Below, one piece after another: positions 5,382 to 15,242 of a stretch of 64,000 bases of DNA. This stretch comes from Hyphomicrobiales bacterium (GTDB lineage Bacteria > Pseudomonadota > Alphaproteobacteria > Rhizobiales > Rhizobiaceae), in NCBI GenBank assembly GCA_900469955.1, contig UBYX01000031.1:62001-126000 (forward strand). The letters are read 5' to 3'. Position 1 is the stretch's first letter. Each line of letters starts with the position of its first letter. Made by a program: the position numbers and the translations under genes. Under the pieces are notes generated by a model that saw only the letters and a list, made by a program, of their open reading frames with translations, made no database searches and was not told where the DNA came from.

Positions 5382-6101
5382 CTACCCCCGCTGCGTATCG
5401 CCCCGCCGCTCCAGAAGGTCGATCTGGATCTGCTGCAATTCGGCTAGCCGCTCCCACTGATGTGCCATCTGGTGATCGATCTTCTCGTGGAGCTGACGGA
5501 TTTCGAGTTCGGCACGCAGATTGATCATGTAGTCGTTCTCGGCGCGCCGCCTGTCCTTCTCCTCCTGGCGCCGCTGGCTCATCATGATCACCGGCGCCTG
5601 CAGCGCGGCAAGGCAGGAAAGCACGAGGTTCAGCAGGATGAAGGGATAGGGATCGAAGGGCACGGCGAAAAGGCCGGATACGTTGAGCGCCATCCAGGCG
5701 AAAAGCACGCCCATGAAGAACAGGATGAACGTCCAGGAGCCGCCGAACGAGGCTACCCGGTCGGCTGTCCGCTCGCCGAAGGTGGGATTGCGGTCGAGCA
5801 CGCTGGCAGCGCTGCTCTGCACCGTGGAAACGCCCTTCTCGAAACTATCGAGCACCTGTCTGTCGAGTTCGGAAAGCTCTCCGCGCTCCTCCGCGAGCAG
5901 CTTCTCGACGTAGCGGCGGCGATAGTGGGCGAGATCTTCGTCGCAGATCAGGCTTTCGGCCCCGCAATCGGCAACTTCGGCGGCAATCATTTCATGGAGA
6001 CCCGGCCTGAGCTGGCCGATCTTGCGCAGCTTCGGCAACGGAAAGGCTCGGCCGCAGACAACGCACTGCGCCGTCCTGTTCGTTCCCGGATGGCGGGTCA
6101 T
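5382..6101 (-). CDS. DUF1003 membrane protein
   Basis: Predicted inner-membrane protein of 239 residues from the DUF1003 family, function unknown. The N-terminus has a CVVC pair (residues 13-16) and a later CDED that could bind a metal. The central part has the family signature DRVASFGGSWTFILFF followed by two membrane helices (about 125-145 and 155-180). The C-terminal third is a charged, likely coiled-coil segment (RRQEEKDRRRAENDY, then RAELEIRQLHEKID). ATG 6101 is one base beyond the stop of the upstream ABC gene, with GAGG seven bases before it, so the two are almost certainly co-transcribed and translationally coupled. A longer in-frame start at 6149 would overlap that gene and is less likely. 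Confidence 0.9.
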   Translation of the reverse strand: MTRHPGTNRTAQCVVCGRAFPLPKLRKIGQLRPGLHEMIAAEVADCGAESLICDEDLAHYRRRYVEKLLAEERGELSELDRQVLDSFEKGVSTVQSSAASVLDRNPTFGERTADRVASFGGSWTFILFFMGVLFAWMALNVSGLFAVPFDPYPFILLNLVLSCLAALQAPVIMMSQRRQEEKDRRRAENDYMINLRAELEIRQLHEKIDHQMAHQWERLAELQQIQIDLLERRGDTQRG

Positions 6102-6102
6102 G

Positions 6103-7899
6103 TCATGCCTCTTCCTTGGCTTCGGCCACCTTGTGAGAGCCGTTGCCATTCTGATTCAATGGCGACAGATGGAAAATCGTCGGCGAGAACTTGTCGAGAT
6201 AATCCTCTGCGCGGCCGATATAGACCAGGGTCGAGGTGTCGAGACCGGCGAGCACGTCGAGCATGCGCTCCCGCGTCTCCGGCTCGAGCCCTTCCAGAAC
6301 GTCGTCCATGATCAGCCATTCCGGCTTGCGCAGCACGGCATTGGCAATCGAAAGAAGCGCTTCCTCGTCCTTGTCGAGAACCCTGTCCCACCGCTCCACG
6401 TCGTCCAGCCGGTCCACGAGCCGGTGCAGCCCGACCTTTTCCAATGCCTCGGCCAGCGCCTCGTCGCTACCCTCCGGCAGCCCGGTCGGATAGGTCATCG
6501 CCTCCTTCAGGGTCGCTGTCGGCAGGTAGCCGTCCTGCGGCAGGAAGATCATGCCGTCCCGCGGCGGCAGGTCGATCTCGCCACGTCCCCACGGCCAGAT
6601 GCGCGCGAGCGACTGGAAGAAGAGATGCCGGTCGGCGCCCGGATCGCCGTTGATCATCACCCTCTCGCCGGCCCGGATCAAGCATTCGCCTTCCCTCAGA
6701 CGGATGCCGTGCCCTGCCGCGCCTCGGTCGGGATCGCCATGGACGGTGACGTTGCATAGGCGGATTCCCTGCGCATCCGATCCCTCGCGATAGGTGAGCA
6801 GTTCGCCTTCCACCGCCGGCGTGTCCATTGCAAGCAGCGCGTTGCGGAAGGAGGAGACCCGAGCCAGCGTCGCCTTCCAGTCGGCAATCACGCCGAAATT
6901 GTTGACATACCATCTGAGCGCCAGGTTGACCTGGTTGAAGGCGCCGACGGCCATCATCAAGCCGCCGAAGGTAAGGCCACCGGAGAAATACATCGGCGAG
7001 GCGATGATGATCGGCGCGACCAGCGCCAGCCAGCCGAAGCCCGCCGAGACCCAGGTGAGGTTGGTCAACGCCCAGGCAACCTTGCGGAGCATTTCGAGCA
7101 CGTTGCCGATCGCCAGGTGGACCCGGCGGAGCTCGCTGTTTTCACCGCGGGCAAGCGTGATCGGCTTCATGTTTTCGTTCGTGCGCATCAGCACGGCGCG
7201 CAGGTCCGCTTCACGCGCGTAACGGTCCGCATTGAGCCTCGGCAACCGGGCGCCGACAACATTGCTGAGCATCGAGCCGATCACCGCGTAGAGCACCGTT
7301 GCCCAGACCATGTAGCCGGGGATCGAGATCCTTCTATCGCCGAAGTGGAACACGAAATCGGACGAAATGGCCCAAAGCACGCCGATGAAGCTTGCCAGTA
7401 GGATGGTGGAATTGACGAGCCCGATTGCCAGGTTTGTGGTGTTTTCGGCAAGGATGCGCGTATCCTCGTGCAGGCGCTGGTCGGGATTGGCGGCGATCGC
7501 GCCCGCGCTTGTGAGCTTCAGCGCCCGCCCCGGCACGAGCCAGACATTCGCGAGGTCGCGCGCCAGCCCCTCCCGCATTCGCATTGCGGTGATCTGGTTG
7601 AGCCATGCCTGGATGACGTTGAGAAGTGTCAGCGTGAAGGCGAGGACGGCGAATACCACGAGCTGGTTGAGGAATTCCGGCATGTCGCGCCGCTCGAGCG
7701 CATCGTAGAAAGGCCCGTTCCATTCATTGAGACGGTATTGGGCGTATGTCGTGGAAAAGATGACGATCAAAAGCGCCACCGTCAGGAGAAGCACCCGATT
7801 GCGGACCGGCGCTCCCCAGAAGGCGCCGATCATCATCCGAAGCTGGCCGCTGAACGCCAGCTCGTAGCTCTGAGGCCTCGCCTCCGGAATTTCAACCAT
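6103..7899 (-). CDS. SbmA/YddA-type ABC transporter (membrane domain plus degenerate nucleotide-binding domain)
   Basis: Half-size ABC transporter of 598 residues of the ABC_membrane_2 (YddA, SbmA/BacA-related) type. The N-terminal 340 residues hold the membrane domain with the family segment YRLNEWNGPFYDALERRD (residues 55-72) and about six helices. The C-terminal part follows an ABC layout, but its catalytic motifs are eroded. The Walker A position reads GDPGADRHLF (418-427) without the GK[ST] lysine. The signature position reads VLDKDEEAL (near 507-515) instead of LSxGE. The Walker B end is LIMDD (529-533) instead of DE. Surrounding framework such as RKPEWLIMDD is well kept, so the reading frame is under selection and a non-hydrolysing or partner-dependent protein is inferred. 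It is divergent from tetR and coupled to the DUF1003 gene. Confidence 0.85.
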   Translation of the reverse strand: MVEIPEARPQSYELAFSGQLRMMIGAFWGAPVRNRVLLLTVALLIVIFSTTYAQYRLNEWNGPFYDALERRDMPEFLNQLVVFAVLAFTLTLLNVIQAWLNQITAMRMREGLARDLANVWLVPGRALKLTSAGAIAANPDQRLHEDTRILAENTTNLAIGLVNSTILLASFIGVLWAISSDFVFHFGDRRISIPGYMVWATVLYAVIGSMLSNVVGARLPRLNADRYAREADLRAVLMRTNENMKPITLARGENSELRRVHLAIGNVLEMLRKVAWALTNLTWVSAGFGWLALVAPIIIASPMYFSGGLTFGGLMMAVGAFNQVNLALRWYVNNFGVIADWKATLARVSSFRNALLAMDTPAVEGELLTYREGSDAQGIRLCNVTVHGDPDRGAAGHGIRLREGECLIRAGERVMINGDPGADRHLFFQSLARIWPWGRGEIDLPPRDGMIFLPQDGYLPTATLKEAMTYPTGLPEGSDEALAEALEKVGLHRLVDRLDDVERWDRVLDKDEEALLSIANAVLRKPEWLIMDDVLEGLEPETRERMLDVLAGLDTSTLVYIGRAEDYLDKFSPTIFHLSPLNQNGNGSHKVAEAKEEA

Positions 7900-8056: not shown

Positions 8057-8692
8057 ATGGTCGAAAAACGAAGAGAAAAGCGGGATCCCCAGCAACGCCG
8101 GGCGGAAATCCTGAACGCCGCCTTTGCCTGTTTTGCCGAGCGAGGATTTGCCGCCACCCGAATGGAGGATGTCGCCGCCCGCGCCGGCATCGCCAAAGGC
8201 ACCGTCTACCTCCATTTTCCGGATAAGGACGCGCTGTTCACCGAGCTGGTGTCGGGCGTCGCCTCACCCATCCTCGGCCAAATGGGGGAACTCGTCGCGA
8301 ACGAAAGCGTCACGCCGCGCTTTGCCGTCTCGATGTTCTACTCCCTCTTCAGGCGGGAGGTTCTGGAAACGGACCGCCGGCATCTGTTGCGGCTTGTCCT
8401 GGCGGAAGGACCGATGTTTCCGGCCGTTGCCGAATTCTATCACAGGGAAATCATCTCCCGAGGGCTCGGCGTGCTGCGCATCCTGCTCGCCCGAGCGGTC
8501 GCGCATGGCGAACTGCGCAATCCCGGGATTGCCGAGACGCCGCAGATCGTCATGGCACCGGCCCTGCTCTCGATCGTCTGGACGACGCTTTTCGAACCCT
8601 ATGAGCATCTCGACACGCAAAAGCTCTTCGACACGTTTCTCGACACGCTCTTCGTGCCAGCTGGGGACCTCCTGGAAGGAGGCGCGCAATGA
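8057..8692 (+). CDS. TetR/AcrR-family transcriptional regulator (CecR-like position)
   Basis: One-component repressor of 211 residues. Residues 15-62 form the TetR helix-turn-helix: RAEILNAAFACFAERGF, then VAARAGIAKGTVYLHFPDKD, a textbook recognition helix. The remainder is a helical ligand-binding domain with no recognisable ligand motif. The gene is first in an operon whose next genes encode an HlyD-type adaptor, an ABC ATPase and a permease; the adaptor start overlaps its last codons (8689-8692). The arrangement mirrors Escherichia coli cecR (ybiH)-ybhGFSR, where the regulator controls the exporter. A palindrome 15 bases upstream suggests autorepression. Confidence 0.93.
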   Translation: MVEKRREKRDPQQRRAEILNAAFACFAERGFAATRMEDVAARAGIAKGTVYLHFPDKDALFTELVSGVASPILGQMGELVANESVTPRFAVSMFYSLFRREVLETDRRHLLRLVLAEGPMFPAVAEFYHREIISRGLGVLRILLARAVAHGELRNPGIAETPQIVMAPALLSIVWTTLFEPYEHLDTQKLFDTFLDTLFVPAGDLLEGGAQ

Positions 8693-9654
8693 AACGGGTG
8701 TTCGTCATCGCGCTGCTCGCGGGTATCGCGCTCGCCGCACTGCCTTTCCTCTTCGCTGAGACGAGCCCGCGGCCCTATCAGGGCTGGGTGGAAGCCGATA
8801 CGCTTTTCATAGGCGCGGAAGGCACGGCCCGGCTTGAAACGCTCGCCGTGGACGAAGGCCGGGCGATCAGCGCCGGCGCGCCACTCTTCAAGCTCGAATC
8901 GGCAAGCGAGGAGGCCGCGGTCGCGGCCGCCCGTGCCGCCCTCGCCCGCAGCCAGGCTGAGCTGGAACTTGCCGAAGCAGCGCAGAAACGCCCGGAAGAG
9001 ATCGATGTGCTGCGCGCCTCCGAACGCGAAGCTATCGCGCGGCTTGCGCTTTCCGAGCAGGAACTCGGCCGCACCCGTTCGCTCGCCACGCGCGGCACCG
9101 CCACCCAGGCCAGCCTCGACGTGGCAATCGCCACCGAAACCGCCAATCGCGCAGCCCTCGACAGCGTCCGCAGCCAGATCACGCTCGCCAATCTTCCCGC
9201 CCGCGAGCAGAACCTCCGCCAGGCGAAGGAAGCCGTGGCGGCGGCAAAGGCCGACCTCGCATCGGCTGAAGCGGCCCTCGCCCGCCGATCGGTCGCCGCA
9301 CCCGCCGCCGGAAGCGTCGAGACCGTCTACTACCGTGTCGGAGAGGTCGTGCCCGCCGGCCGGCCTGTTGTCGCTCTCCTGCCCCCTGAAAATATCCGCA
9401 TTCGCTTCTTCGCCCCGGAAACCGAGATCGCCCATTTTTCCCTCGGCCAACAGGTCCGCGTCTCCTGCAACGCCTGTGAGCCGCAGGATGCAAGGATCAG
9501 CTTCATCGCCAAGACCGCCGAGTTCACACCACCGGAGATCTACAGTCTGGAAGAGCGTGCAAAGCTCGTCTTTCGCATCGAAGCAATCCCGGTGGCGCCC
9601 ATGTCCTTGCGCCCCGGCCAGCCCGTCGATATCGCCGCCGGAGCCCGGCCATGA
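8689..9654 (+). CDS. HlyD/YbhG-family periplasmic adaptor of an ABC exporter
   Basis: Membrane-fusion protein of 321 residues that would connect the inner-membrane ABC exporter to an outer-membrane channel. It starts MKRVFVIALLAGIALAALPF, a single N-terminal membrane anchor or signal. A biotinyl-lipoyl half follows (GWVEADTLFIGAEGTARL), then a long alpha-helical hairpin (residues 75-200, rich in Ala, Glu and Arg), the second lipoyl half (RRSVAAPAAGSVETVYYRVG) and a beta-barrel region. The start has AAGGAGG upstream and overlaps tetR by four bases. The following ATPase gene overlaps it by four bases, so the operon is translationally coupled. Confidence 0.93.
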   Translation: MKRVFVIALLAGIALAALPFLFAETSPRPYQGWVEADTLFIGAEGTARLETLAVDEGRAISAGAPLFKLESASEEAAVAAARAALARSQAELELAEAAQKRPEEIDVLRASEREAIARLALSEQELGRTRSLATRGTATQASLDVAIATETANRAALDSVRSQITLANLPAREQNLRQAKEAVAAAKADLASAEAALARRSVAAPAAGSVETVYYRVGEVVPAGRPVVALLPPENIRIRFFAPETEIAHFSLGQQVRVSCNACEPQDARISFIAKTAEFTPPEIYSLEERAKLVFRIEAIPVAPMSLRPGQPVDIAAGARP

Positions 9655-10601
9655 GCACCGCGCCCGCAACCGTCGAAGGCCCCGAAACGGTGATCGACGT
9701 CCATCACCTGACCAAGAGCTTTGGCGGTCGCAAGGTGGTCGACGACGTCTCGATGTCGGTGAAGAAGGGCCGCATCCACGGTTTTCTCGGCCCCAACGGC
9801 TCCGGCAAGACCACCACCATCCGCATGCTCTGCGGCCTGTTGACCCCGGATAGCGGCGACGGCACCTGTCTCGGCTTCGATATCCTGACCCAGAGCGACC
9901 GCATCCGCCGGCGCGTCGGCTATATGACGCAGAAATTCTCGCTCTATCAGGATCTTTCCATCCGCGAGAACCTGGAATTCGTCGCCCGCGTCTACGGGCT
10001 TCCCGATGCACGCGGCAAGGCGAAGGCTGCGATCGAGCGGCTCGGCCTGAAAGGCCGCGAAAAGCAGCTCGCGGGCGATCTTTCCGGTGGCTGGAAACAG
10101 CGCCTCGCGCTCGGCGCCTGCATCCTGCCCGAGCCCGCGCTTCTCCTCCTCGACGAACCGACCGCAGGTGTCGACCCGCAGGCGCGCCGCGATTTCTGGA
10201 ACGAGATCCATGCGCTCGCCACAGATGGCCTCTCGGTGCTGGTTTCCACCCACTACATGGACGAGGCGGAGCGCTGTCACGAGATTGCCTATATCGCCTA
10301 CGGCAAGCTGTTGGTGCAGGGCACCGTCGACGAGGTTATCGAAGGCACCGGCCTTGTCACCTGGACCGTATCCGGCCCCGATGTTCACCACCTCCAGACC
10401 GAACTCTCGAAGCAGCCGGGCATCGACATGATCGCGCCGTTCGGGTTGAGCCTCCATGTGGCGGGACATGACGAAACTGCGCTCGAACAGGCGATCGCGC
10501 CCTATCGGGATCGCTCCGGCTTCAAATGGGAAAAGGGCGAAGCCACGCTGGAGGATGCCTTCATCGACCTGATGGGCCGTTCGCAGGACAATTTCAGATG
10601 A
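9651..10601 (+). CDS. ABC exporter ATP-binding protein (YbhF-like, single domain)
   Basis: Cytoplasmic ATPase of 316 residues that drives the adjacent permease. It has Walker A GPNGSGKTTT near residue 47, signature LSGGWKQRLALG near residue 145, Walker B LLLLDEPTAGVD and the switch histidine in STHYMDEAE. All catalytic positions look intact. E. coli YbhF carries two nucleotide-binding domains in one chain of about 578 residues; this protein has only one, so a homodimer is expected. It overlaps the adaptor gene by four bases and the permease gene by four bases (ATGA). The substrate is unknown; YbhFSR-type systems export cations or drugs. Confidence 0.95.
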   Translation: MSTAPATVEGPETVIDVHHLTKSFGGRKVVDDVSMSVKKGRIHGFLGPNGSGKTTTIRMLCGLLTPDSGDGTCLGFDILTQSDRIRRRVGYMTQKFSLYQDLSIRENLEFVARVYGLPDARGKAKAAIERLGLKGREKQLAGDLSGGWKQRLALGACILPEPALLLLDEPTAGVDPQARRDFWNEIHALATDGLSVLVSTHYMDEAERCHEIAYIAYGKLLVQGTVDEVIEGTGLVTWTVSGPDVHHLQTELSKQPGIDMIAPFGLSLHVAGHDETALEQAIAPYRDRSGFKWEKGEATLEDAFIDLMGRSQDNFR

Positions 10602-11755
10602 CCGCGCCCTACGATCCGCAACTCAACGGCAACGGAGGCTTCTTCAAGCGCTTCTGGGCGATGACCGTCAAGGAGTTCATCCAGATGACCCGTGATCGGG
10701 TGACGTTGGCCACCATGATCATGATCCCGGTCATGCAGCTCCTGCTGTTCGGTTTCGCGATCAACACCACGCCGCACGACCTGCCGACCGCCGTCCTGAT
10801 GCGCGAAAACAGCGATGTCGGCCGTTCTATCCTCGCCGCATTGAAGAACACCGACTTCTTCGAGGTCCAGTCCGTCATCACCCGCTCCGAGGATATGGAT
10901 TCGCTGCTGAAATCGGGCCGGGTGCTTTTCGTGGTCGAGATACCGGAAGGTTTCGAACGGGCGGTAAGACGGGGCGAGACGCCTGCCCTTCTCGTCGCCG
11001 CCGATGCCACCGATCCGGTCGCAGCGAGTTCAGCGCTCGGCGCGCTCAGCGGCATCGTTACCTCGGCACTCGCCAACGATCGGCAGATCGAGTTTTCGGA
11101 ACCCTCGAAGCCCGCGTTTTCGATCGTGCAGCACCGCCGCTACAACCCGGCGGGTTCGTCGACCCTCAACATCGTGCCCGGTCTCCTCGGCACGATCCTG
11201 ACGATGACGCTTCTGATCTTCACCGCCCTTTCCGTCACCCGCGAGATGGAGCGCGGGACGATGGAAAACCTGCTGTCCATGCCGATCAGGCCGCTCGAAA
11301 TCATGTTCGGCAAGATCACGCCCTATGTCCTGATAGGCCTCATCCAGGCCCTGATCATCATTTCGGCGGGCATCCTGGTCTTCCGGGTCCCGATTCTCGG
11401 CGACCTGCCGTCGCTCGCCATAGCGACGGCGCTATTCGTCATCGCCAACCTGTCGATCGGCTACACCTTTTCGACCTTGGCGACCAATCAGCTCCAGGCC
11501 ATTCAGATGGCGATGATGTTCTTCCTGCCGAATATCCTGCTCTCGGGCTTTATGTTCCCCTTCGCCGGCATGCCGGGCTGGGCGCAATGGATCGGCGAGG
11601 CGCTGCCGCTGACGCACTACATACGCATCGTCCGCGCAGTCATGCTGAAAGGCGCCGACATCGTCACGCTCGCCTATGATACGGGCGTCCTCGCCGGCCT
11701 GATGATGCTCGCCATGCTGATTGCCGTGCGCCGTTTCCGCCGAACGCTGGATTGA
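10598..11755 (+). CDS. ABC exporter permease (ABC-2 type, YbhS/YbhR-like)
   Basis: Inner-membrane permease of 385 residues of the ABC-2 family. A short cytoplasmic N-terminus (FWAMTVKEFIQMTRDRVT) leads into helix 1. A large periplasmic domain covers about residues 55-175. Five more helices fill the C-terminal half, including the ABC-2 signature region LSGFMFPFAGMPGWAQWIGE. ATG 10598 overlaps the ATPase stop (ATGA). Only one permease gene is present where E. coli has the pair ybhS and ybhR, which fits a homodimeric exporter with the single-domain ATPase. No terminator is obvious in the 148 bases that follow. Confidence 0.93.
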   Translation: MTAPYDPQLNGNGGFFKRFWAMTVKEFIQMTRDRVTLATMIMIPVMQLLLFGFAINTTPHDLPTAVLMRENSDVGRSILAALKNTDFFEVQSVITRSEDMDSLLKSGRVLFVVEIPEGFERAVRRGETPALLVAADATDPVAASSALGALSGIVTSALANDRQIEFSEPSKPAFSIVQHRRYNPAGSSTLNIVPGLLGTILTMTLLIFTALSVTREMERGTMENLLSMPIRPLEIMFGKITPYVLIGLIQALIIISAGILVFRVPILGDLPSLAIATALFVIANLSIGYTFSTLATNQLQAIQMAMMFFLPNILLSGFMFPFAGMPGWAQWIGEALPLTHYIRIVRAVMLKGADIVTLAYDTGVLAGLMMLAMLIAVRRFRRTLD

Positions 11756-11903: not shown

Positions 11904-14900
11904 ATGGCGATCAAGGCGAGTATCTATCACCTCACCCATTATAAATACGACAGGCCCGTTCGCCTCGGTCCACAGATCATCCGGTTGAAGCCCGCCGCTC
12001 ATTCCCGCACCAAGGTCTTGAGCCACTCGCTGAAGGTCACGCCGTCGAACCATTTCGTGAACCTGCAGCAGGACCCGTACGGCAACTATCTGGCCCGCTA
12101 CGTCTTCCCCGACCCGGTGACCGAGTTGAAGATCGAGGTCGACCTGATCGCCGACATGACGGTCTACAATCCCTTCGACTTTTTCGTCGAGGAGGAAGCC
12201 ACCAAATGGCCTTTCGACTATCCGGAAACGCTGGTGGAGGACCTCTCCATCTACCGGATGCCCGAGCCCGCGACGCCGCTGCTTCAGGCTTTCGTCAACA
12301 CGATCGACCAGTCGCCGGACCAGCCGACGGTCGACATGGTCGTCGGCCTGAATGCGCGCCTGCAGCGCGAGATCGGCTATGTCATCCGCATGGAGCCCGG
12401 CGTGCAGACGCCAGAAGAGACGCTGGCCTCCGCCAAAGGCTCCTGCCGCGATACAAGCTGGCTGCTGGTCCAGATCCTTCGCCACCTCGGTCTCGCCGCC
12501 CGTTTCGTCTCGGGTTATCTCATCCAGCTGACGCCCGACCTGAAGGCGCTCGACGGCCCCTCCGGCACAGAAGTCGATTTCACCGACCTGCACGCCTGGT
12601 GTGAAGTCTATCTGCCGGGCGCCGGCTGGGTGGGTCTCGACCCCACCTCCGGCCTCTTGACCGGCGAAAGCCATATCCCGCTTGCCGCAACGCCGCACTA
12701 TCGCAACGCCGCGCCGATCTCCGGCGGTTATTTCGGCGAGGCGGAAACCTCCTTCGACTTCGATATGACGGTTAGCCGCGTCGCCGAGCATCCGCGCATC
12801 ACCAAGCCCTTCTCCGACGAGTCCTGGGAGGCGCTCGACGATCTCGGCGAAGAGGTCGATCGCATCCTGCATGCACAGGATGTCCGCCTCACCATGGGTG
12901 GGGAACCGACCTTCGTATCGATCGACGACTTCGAATCCGGTGAATGGAACACCGACGCCGTCGGCCCCACCAAACGCGAAAAGGCCGATATCCTGATCCG
13001 CAGGCTGCGCGAGCGTTTCGCGCCGGGCGGCTTCCTGCATTACGGCCAGGGCAAATGGTATCCCGGCGAGAGCCTGCCGCGCTGGACCTTCTCGCTCTAC
13101 TGGCGCAAGGACGACCGTCCCATCTGGAGCAATCCCGACCTCGTGGCGCAGGAAGGCCGCGATTACGGCATCGGCGATGACGATGCGGAAAAGCTGCTGA
13201 CCGGCATTGCCGACGAGCTTGGCCTGAGCCCGGATTACGTCGCGCCGGCCTACGAGGATCCGGCAGAATGGATCATCAAGGAAGGCAGCCTGCCGGAAAA
13301 CGTCGATCCGTCGAATTCCAAGCTCAAGGATCCGGAGGAACGCAACCGCATCGCCCGCGTCTTCGAACGCGGCCTGACGCGCCCGAGCGGCTACGTCCTG
13401 CCCGTCCAGGCCTGGAATGCCCAGGCCAGGGGAACGGCACCCCGCAAGCGCTGGATCAGCGAGAAATGGCGCACCCGGCGCGGCAAGATCTTCCTTGTCC
13501 CCGGAGACAGCCCGGTCGGTTATCGCCTGCCGCTCGGGACGCTCCCTTACGTGCCCCCGTCGCAGTTTCCGTATATCCACGAGGCAGACCCCTCGATCCC
13601 CCGCCAGCCCCTGCCCGACGCGATCGTGCCGGTGGGCCGCGCCATGCCGGAATCCTCGTTCAAGGCGGGCGATGCGGCCAATCTCGGCCGCGTCGAGCAA
13701 GTGCTCGGCGAGATCGGCGGCGCGGTCCGCACCGCCATATCCGTGGAGCCCCGCGACGGCAGGCTCTGCGTCTTCATGCCGCCGGTGGAAAAGATCGAGG
13801 ATTATCTCGAGCTGATCGCCGCTGCCGAAAACGCCGCCACCGAACTCGGCCTGCCGGTCCATATCGAAGGTTATGCGCCGCCGCACGACGAACGCATCAA
13901 CGTCATCCGCGTCGCGCCTGATCCCGGCGTCATCGAGGTCAACATCCATCCGGCCGCAAGCTGGAAGGAAACCGTCTCGATCACTACGGCCATATATGAG
14001 GAGGCTCGCCAGAGCCGGCTCGGCGCCGACAAGTTCATGATCGACGGCCGCCACACCGGCACCGGCGGCGGCAACCATGTGGTGGTCGGCGGCGCCAATC
14101 CGAACGACAGCCCCTTCCTGCGCCGCCCGGACCTTTTGAAGAGCATCGTGCTGCACTGGCAGCGGCATCCGTCGCTGTCCTATCTCTTCTCCGGTCTCTT
14201 CATCGGCCCCACCTCCCAGGCGCCGCGCATCGATGAAGCCCGCCACGATTCCATGTACGAGCTCGAGATCGCGCTGGCCCAGGTGCCCGCACCCGGACAA
14301 GGCGTGCCACCCCTGCCCTGGCTGGTCGACCGCCTTTTCCGCAACCTTTTGACCGACGTCACCGGCAATACCCACCGATCCGAAATCTGCATCGACAAGC
14401 TGTTTTCGCCGGACGGCCCGACCGGTCGCCTCGGCCTCGTCGAGTTCCGCGGCTTCGAGATGCCGCCGAATGCGCGCATGTCGCTCGCCCAGCAGCTTCT
14501 CGTCCGCGCGCTGATCGCAAGGTTCTGGAAGAACCCGGTACAGGGCAGGTTCGTCCGCTGGGGCACGACGCTCGCCGACCGCTTCATGCTGCCGCATTAC
14601 GTCTGGGCCGATTTCCTCGACGTGCTGCAGGATCTGCGCGAAAACGGCTTCGACCTTCGTCCCGAATGGTTCGATGCGCAGCTCGAGTTCCGTTTTCCCT
14701 TCTTTGGCGAGGTGGATTACAAAGGCTCGAAACTGGAGCTTCGTCAGGCGCTCGAACCCTGGCACGTCATGGGCGAACAGGGCGCCATCGGCGGCACTGT
14801 CCGTTATGTCGATTCCTCCGTCGAGCGGTTGCAGGTGCGGCTCGAAACTGCCAATCCGTCCCGTTACACCGTCGCCTGCAATGGGCGCGCCGTGCCCTTG

Positions 14901-15242
14901 AAGGAGACAGGAACGTCCGGCGTCGCGGTTGCCGGGGTGCGTTTCAAGGCCTGGCAGCCATCCGCCGGCCTGCATCCGGTCTTGCCGGTTAATACGCCGC
15001 TCACCTTCGACATTTATGATACATGGTCCGGCCGATCGATCGGCGGCTGCATCTACCATGTTGCCCATCCGGGCGGTCGCAACTATGAGACCTTCCCAGT
15101 CAACGGCAACGAGGCCGAGGCCCGCCGGCTTGCCCGGTTCGAACCGTGGGGGCACACGGCCGGGCGCTATGCGCTGATGCCGGAAACGCCCTCCCCCGAA
15201 TTTCCGCTGACGCTCGATCTGCGCCGGCCGCTAGGAGTCTGA
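11904..15242 (+). CDS. Transglutaminase-like protease fold plus DUF2126 protein
   Basis: Large cytoplasmic protein of 1112 residues. Residues 1-270 are a bacterial transglutaminase-like module with an N-terminal beta domain ([20 protein letters not shown]) and a complete triad: Cys181 in GSCRDTSW, His230 in [10 protein letters not shown], Asp246 in GLDPTSG. From about residue 320 to the end it is DUF2126, with the hallmark [11 protein letters not shown], the tract [13 protein letters not shown] and a conserved His/Gly patch [11 protein letters not shown] near residue 716. The triad suggests peptide-bond cleavage or amide exchange; DUF2126 has no proven activity that I know of. It begins a three-gene operon with an ATP-grasp/alpha-E protein nine bases downstream and a second transglutaminase. 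Substrate and product are unknown. Confidence 0.93.

Follow-up and report, generated by a model that had tools for sequence, protein, structure and literature searches.

The window (the whole 64,000-nucleotide stretch of DNA that we analysed, from a Rhizobiaceae genome) contains an unbroken open reading frame encoding a half-transporter of type IV that belongs to the SbmA/BclA/ExsE superfamily, listed with its features in Table 1. Pfam and an AlphaFold2 model built from 63 sequences (pLDDT 81.9, pTM 0.70) both place the transmembrane domain (TMD) and the nucleotide-binding domain (NBD) on a single chain. The TMD, scored at 104 bits for ABC_membrane_2 and 85 bits for SbmA_BacA, is modelled as an elbow helix (residues 16–29) followed by six long helices, and the NBD, with a pLDDT mostly of 79–91, is predicted to be folded. 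Foldseek returned Rv1819c (6tqe, TM-score 0.80) as the top PDB match, with ABCD fatty-acid transporters also among the best. An earlier note on this DNA had described the rest of the domain, outside its eroded motifs, as well conserved; this is accurate for the membrane domain but overgenerous for the NBD, whose ABC_tran score of 17.7 bits lies below the cut-off of 25.

Table 1. Features of the locus and of its NBD-less relatives; positions are those of the window.
Feature	Position or locus	Strand	Basis or remark
ExsE-clade ABC half-transporter with putatively non-catalytic NBD, 598 aa	6103..7899	(-)	intact ORF
Transmembrane domain (TMD), residues 14-360	6820..7860	(-)	Pfam ABC_membrane_2 / SbmA_BacA, AlphaFold2, Foldseek
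Second intracellular (coupling) loop, residues 236-262; E242, G252, E253, E256	7114..7194	(-)	orthologue conservation
NBD, residues 375-578, predicted folded, catalytic motifs missing	6166..6777	(-)	ABC_tran, pLDDT, dN/dS
Walker A position, NGDPGADRHL, Lys to invariant Arg424	6622..6651	(-)	alignment
Q-loop LPQ, Gln455 retained	6535..6543	(-)	alignment
Signature position, LDKDEE	6361..6378	(-)	alignment
Walker B / D-loop position, LIMDDVLEGLE	6283..6315	(-)	alignment
H-loop position, YIGRA, His to Arg563	6208..6222	(-)	alignment
DUF1003 membrane protein, 239 aa	5382..6101	(-)	start at 6101, 1 nt past the ABC stop codon (6103-6105); linked only in inner clade
NBD-less ExsE relatives, about 360-384 aa	L063, L216-L229, L231		16 Rhizobiaceae genomes

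The gene for a DUF1003 membrane protein, to which the transporter had been described as coupled, does adjoin it here and in 32 of the 34 genomes of an inner, Neorhizobium-like clade of orthologues (at least 64% identity), being absent from G054 and G056. The coupling does not extend to the family as a whole, since in the outer clade DUF1003 is unlinked or absent; the DUF1003 protein is, on this distribution, a subclade accessory. In front of its membrane domain it carries an N-terminal, zinc-ribbon-like CxxC...C..C pattern. On the other side of the transporter gene, a divergent operon (8057-11755, forward strand) encodes a TetR regulator, an HlyD-type membrane fusion protein, an ABC ATPase and an ABC-2 permease; it adjoins the gene in Neorhizobium and Xaviernesmea and is missing in several other inner-clade genomes. 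Further on (11904-15242, forward strand) lies the gene for a 1112-residue protein with a large C-terminal domain, which we take to be transglutaminase-like and which is encoded close to the ExsE-type gene in many genomes of the inner clade, as well as at L085. Neighbours differ between clades, and an operon partner common to the whole family was rejected.

Firstly, we compared the ATPase motifs with their canonical forms. The Walker A stretch GDPGADRH departs from GxxGxGK[ST] (AGESGSGKST in the canonical paralogue L002): Arg424 occupies the Lys position, Asp substitutes for Gly423 and His for Ser/Thr. LDKDEE stands in place of the LSGGEK/Q signature, Walker B reads LIMDD with the catalytic Glu changed to Asp (D533), the D-loop reads EGLE in place of SALD, and the H-loop reads IGRA in place of VGHR, so that the His has become R563. 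Every catalytic motif is thus changed, and Gln455 of the Q-loop is retained. The earlier description of eroded Walker A, signature and Walker B motifs in an intact frame is hence borne out, and the erosion reaches the H-loop and D-loop too. Changes of the Walker A Lys are generally known to abolish hydrolysis in ABC transporters. Judged by its motifs, the protein is very unlikely to hydrolyse ATP in the normal manner, as the earlier note had held; nucleotide binding might still be possible with Arg at this position, and slow or atypical hydrolysis likewise. The automatic name given to such genes, 'ABC transporter ATP-binding protein/permease', is probably misleading.

Secondly, we established that the altered motifs are fixed. 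Arg occupies the Walker A Lys position in 122 of 122 non-redundant Rhizobium/Neorhizobium/Agrobacterium-type orthologues (34 from the inner and 88 from the outer clade, all from rows at least 49% identical to the window protein), and all six Arg codons are used (CGC 68, CGG 33, CGT 10, CGA 6, AGG 4, AGA 1). New residues are nearly fixed at N417, D509, E536, E539, Y560 and R563. Within the NBD, conservation is highest in the altered motif columns, whose mean entropy is 0.87 versus 1.74 for the other columns, and in a circular-shift test of the motif pattern only one of 204 shifts, the observed one, was this conserved. Outside the 122-sequence set, the more divergent proteins L055 and L235 show a residue other than Lys or Arg at this Walker A position; L055 (3009-4874 in genome G005), an NBD-bearing member of the Rhizobium-type clade on a long branch, reads DADLHL there, and the DUF1003 homologue of its genome sits elsewhere.

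Thirdly, we measured substitution rates. Pairwise dN/dS within the inner clade is 0.03–0.20 for the TMD and 0.05–0.38 for the NBD (Nei–Gojobori estimates, with dS high in the wider pairs), versus about 0.05–0.16 for the NBD of the BclA paralogue in pairs with measurable dS. The dN of the NBD is about twice that of the TMD, a ratio that stands at 1.5 for canonical BclA. Compared with a working NBD, constraint on this NBD is some two to three times weaker, yet its evolution is far from neutral; such purifying selection implies some function, without thereby demonstrating transport. Invariant Arg written with all six codons, conserved motif columns and these dN/dS values argue against a recent pseudogene or a sequence error, the two possibilities that the earlier note had raised against its own reading. 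An error is further ruled out by an independent assembly of Neorhizobium alkalisoli (L073), the nearest named relative, in which a 98% identical protein has the same motif residues, and canonical or half-canonical orthologues are confined to genera and families other than Rhizobium sensu lato. In single genomes the ExsE-type gene is broken or truncated (L054, L066, L062, L230): it is split into two frames in G043, fragmented with most of the NBD missing in G031, and interrupted inside the NBD in G106 and G408.

The closest named protein is ExsE of S. meliloti (44% identity over 94% of the protein), which we identified through its neighbours exsH and queCDE on pSymB; ExsE falls within Clade A of the SbmA/BacA-like proteins (PMC12003926). 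Trees built from the TMD alone group the window protein with S. meliloti ExsE and leave BclA outside. They show a graded loss of motifs. BclA-type proteins and the basal L183 and L187 carry near-complete motifs (GKST, LSLG-Q, DEAT, HR). Members of the next grade, from S. meliloti, Ensifer and many other genera, have lost the signature Gly and the H-loop His and kept the Walker A Lys. The Lys was lost later, at least four times in one tree and five in the other, with G, R, L, Q or H in its place; the largest case is the Rhizobium-type clade that contains the window protein (SH-aLRT 100). In the open-access literature we came across no paper noting that ExsE proteins have lost ATPase motifs. Long-chain fatty acid transport is stated for ExsE (PMC12003926); for the window protein the link to fatty acids consists of the fold similarity to ABCD1/3 detected by Foldseek. 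In an S. meliloti bacA mutant, the gentamicin phenotype is complemented in part by ExsE of P. zundukense (PMC12003926), so at least one member of the ExsE clade seems to transport; that ExsE may be one that keeps the Lys or one that lacks it.

A group that the earlier note did not anticipate consists of relatives without an NBD. A search of a sample of 298 Rhizobiaceae genomes, with the unusually short L063 as query, gave matches in 110, and in 16 of these the protein ends directly past the last TMD helix. No NBD remnant was present downstream in the 3–4 kb read per locus (only 139 bases for L227); weak NBD-like matches 3.4 kb away from L223 and L224 resemble unrelated ABC genes. The NBD-less proteins form two groups in the tree, one beside L056 among the Lys-keepers and the other within or beside the Lys-less clade. 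A single loss of the NBD is rejected, implying at least two, at a p-AU of 0.016 that carries the caveats of long branches, a group picked after inspection of the tree and a quick tree search. In the Rhizobium-type lineage the NBD-less sequences nest inside the Lys-less clade, and a tree with them outside is also acceptable (p-AU 0.27); Lys loss before NBD loss is thus one of two acceptable orders there. The TMDs of NBD-less proteins are under purifying selection (dN/dS 0.025–0.06 in three groups, 0.18–0.32 in a fourth). By this measure selection preserves the membrane domain even with no ATPase attached, and these proteins are candidate SbmA-like transporters that arose separately.

We then related the altered NBD to the coupling loop. 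Both the NBD fold and the coupling loops are recovered (AlphaFold2, Foldseek), and glutamates of the second intracellular loop are conserved: among the 122 NBD-bearing orthologues lacking the Lys, E242 and E256 are kept in all and E253 in 119. E242, G252, E253 and E256 are in fact kept in NBD-bearing members whether or not the Walker A Lys is present, whereas in NBD-less proteins the E242 position is T/S/D/Q/R, the G252 position mixed, the E253 position S/R/E and the E256 position A/K/H/Q/E/R/T. Our chief ground for regarding the altered NBD as probably still coupled to the membrane domain is that the loop glutamates persist alongside it and erode where the NBD is gone.

These observations bear on whether the protein acts like SbmA/BacA, as the earlier note had suggested, that is, as a secondary transporter driven by protons through a glutamate ladder, its NBD an evolutionary remnant. 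The Pfam SbmA_BacA match and the existence of NBD-less relatives agree with this, and the latter uphold the part of the suggestion that concerns a membrane domain maintained without an ATPase. The proton coupling fares worse. SbmA residues E193, E203, E269, E276, E287 and E378 align with E145, T155, N223, E230, N241 and D340, so the ladder is present only in part (E145, E230 and D340). Equivalents of E203 and E287 are absent from Lys-less and NBD-less proteins alike; the same gap, with the same partial ladder, occurs in YddA (PMC13316013). The alignment revealed no acidic residue gained in the TMD when either the Lys or the NBD was lost: the changes accompanying Walker A loss are K/Q105 to A, R280 to N and Q325 to N, while D146 and E230 are invariant in every sequence counted. 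The model has an elbow helix where SbmA has its TM0 helices, and selection on the NBD and the coupling loop argues that the NBD is no passive remnant. SbmA/BacA and the window family share about 20% identity, and our trees carry no supported placement of SbmA/BacA. Since its ladder is incomplete, a literal SbmA proton mechanism is not supported by the alignment, and we consider this explanation unlikely; another gradient-driven mechanism is possible.

A somewhat less probable explanation is an atypical working ATPase or an ATP-gated transporter, in which Arg424 and the new conserved residues would bind and perhaps slowly hydrolyse ATP. Lys to Arg is a conservative change, invariant in the 122 orthologues, and G418, Q455 and, in the inner clade, D532 of Walker B are kept. 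However, the signature, catalytic Glu, D-loop and H-loop are all altered, even the Walker B Asp is gone in 15 of the 88 outer-clade sequences, the Lys was lost several times independently to different residues, and related lineages dispense with the NBD altogether.

Pairing with a catalytically active partner, also proposed in the earlier note, is not supported by the survey and is very improbable. Heterodimers with one degenerate site are common (PMC7756269), and the genome of the window encodes a canonical BclA-type paralogue (31% identity) as well as BacA/SbmA. However, this only canonical paralogue of the same family (threshold E ≤ 1e-30) is lacking in 33 of the 54 same-genus genomes whose ExsE-type gene is unbroken (53 with Arg, G005/L055 with Leu), among them G023, the 98% identical relative; a heterodimer within the family therefore cannot be general. 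The operon encodes no ATPase partner, and with changes in Walker A as well as in the signature, the window protein would leave both composite sites incomplete even beside an active subunit. A decaying gene heading for loss, to which absence or breakage in a few relatives (G037; L054, L066) and an NBD evolving faster than that of BclA might point, is scarcely credible given a dN/dS well under 1 in both domains, a frame open in more than 110 species and new residues fixed at the motif positions.

The explanation that we favour, with some reserve, is that this member of the ExsE clade acts as a homodimeric transporter in the inner membrane, would no longer be an ATPase and would keep its dead NBD as a scaffold while moving substrate by means of a gradient. 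The homodimer is assumed from the family. Its NBD may now serve in dimerisation, gating or nucleotide sensing, and the substrate gradient would drive the membrane domain through alternating access; alternatively, a proton gradient might be used via residues other than the full SbmA ladder, with E145, D146, E152, E230 and D340 as candidates. Its substrates would probably resemble those of other SbmA/BclA/ExsE proteins, being small hydrophilic, peptide-like or amphipathic compounds. In two related lineages the change went on to complete loss of the NBD. More tentatively, we propose that the ExsE family could display, in living species, the passage from an ABC transporter driven by ATP to a transporter that does without it, in which signature and H-loop were lost first and the Lys then repeatedly, the dead NBD became a coupled non-catalytic gate, and the NBD was finally lost at least twice, independently of SbmA/BacA. 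The proton-driven SbmA has been proposed to derive from an ABC transporter by loss of the NBD, with intermediates not shown (PMC13316013). The ExsE family would supply such intermediates in living species, more than 100 of which keep the dead NBD, while at least two lineages have shed it. Natural proteins thereby allow direct tests of how a pump comes to work without ATP and of what use a catalytically dead NBD still is.

Among known systems, S. meliloti ExsE shares the domain order and the TMD-tree branch of the window protein and has likewise lost the signature (LGDDEQ) and the H-loop, but it keeps GKT (GDPRAGKTL) and the Walker B DE, whereas the window copy has lost both Lys and catalytic Glu. 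The best structural match, Rv1819c (BacA) of Mycobacterium tuberculosis, is also a type IV half-transporter (sequence E 4e-35); it retains a working Walker A (GRSGAGKTT) and is reportedly ATP-driven. BclA/YddA, represented in the window genome by the paralogue C29, belongs to the same superfamily (31% identity) but has the full set of ATPase motifs (GESGSGKST, LSGGEK, MDEATSALD, GHR). In the heterodimeric exporters TM287/288, TAP and MRP1, degenerate motifs are also kept by selection, but each dimer there has one canonical site, whereas all sites would be non-canonical in the window protein. Finally, SbmA/BacA (SLiPT) has a homologous six-helix TMD, and ATPase-free transport is plausible for both; SbmA, however, has no NBD and possesses TM0 helices and the full ladder, whereas the window protein keeps its NBD and lacks equivalents of E203 and E287.
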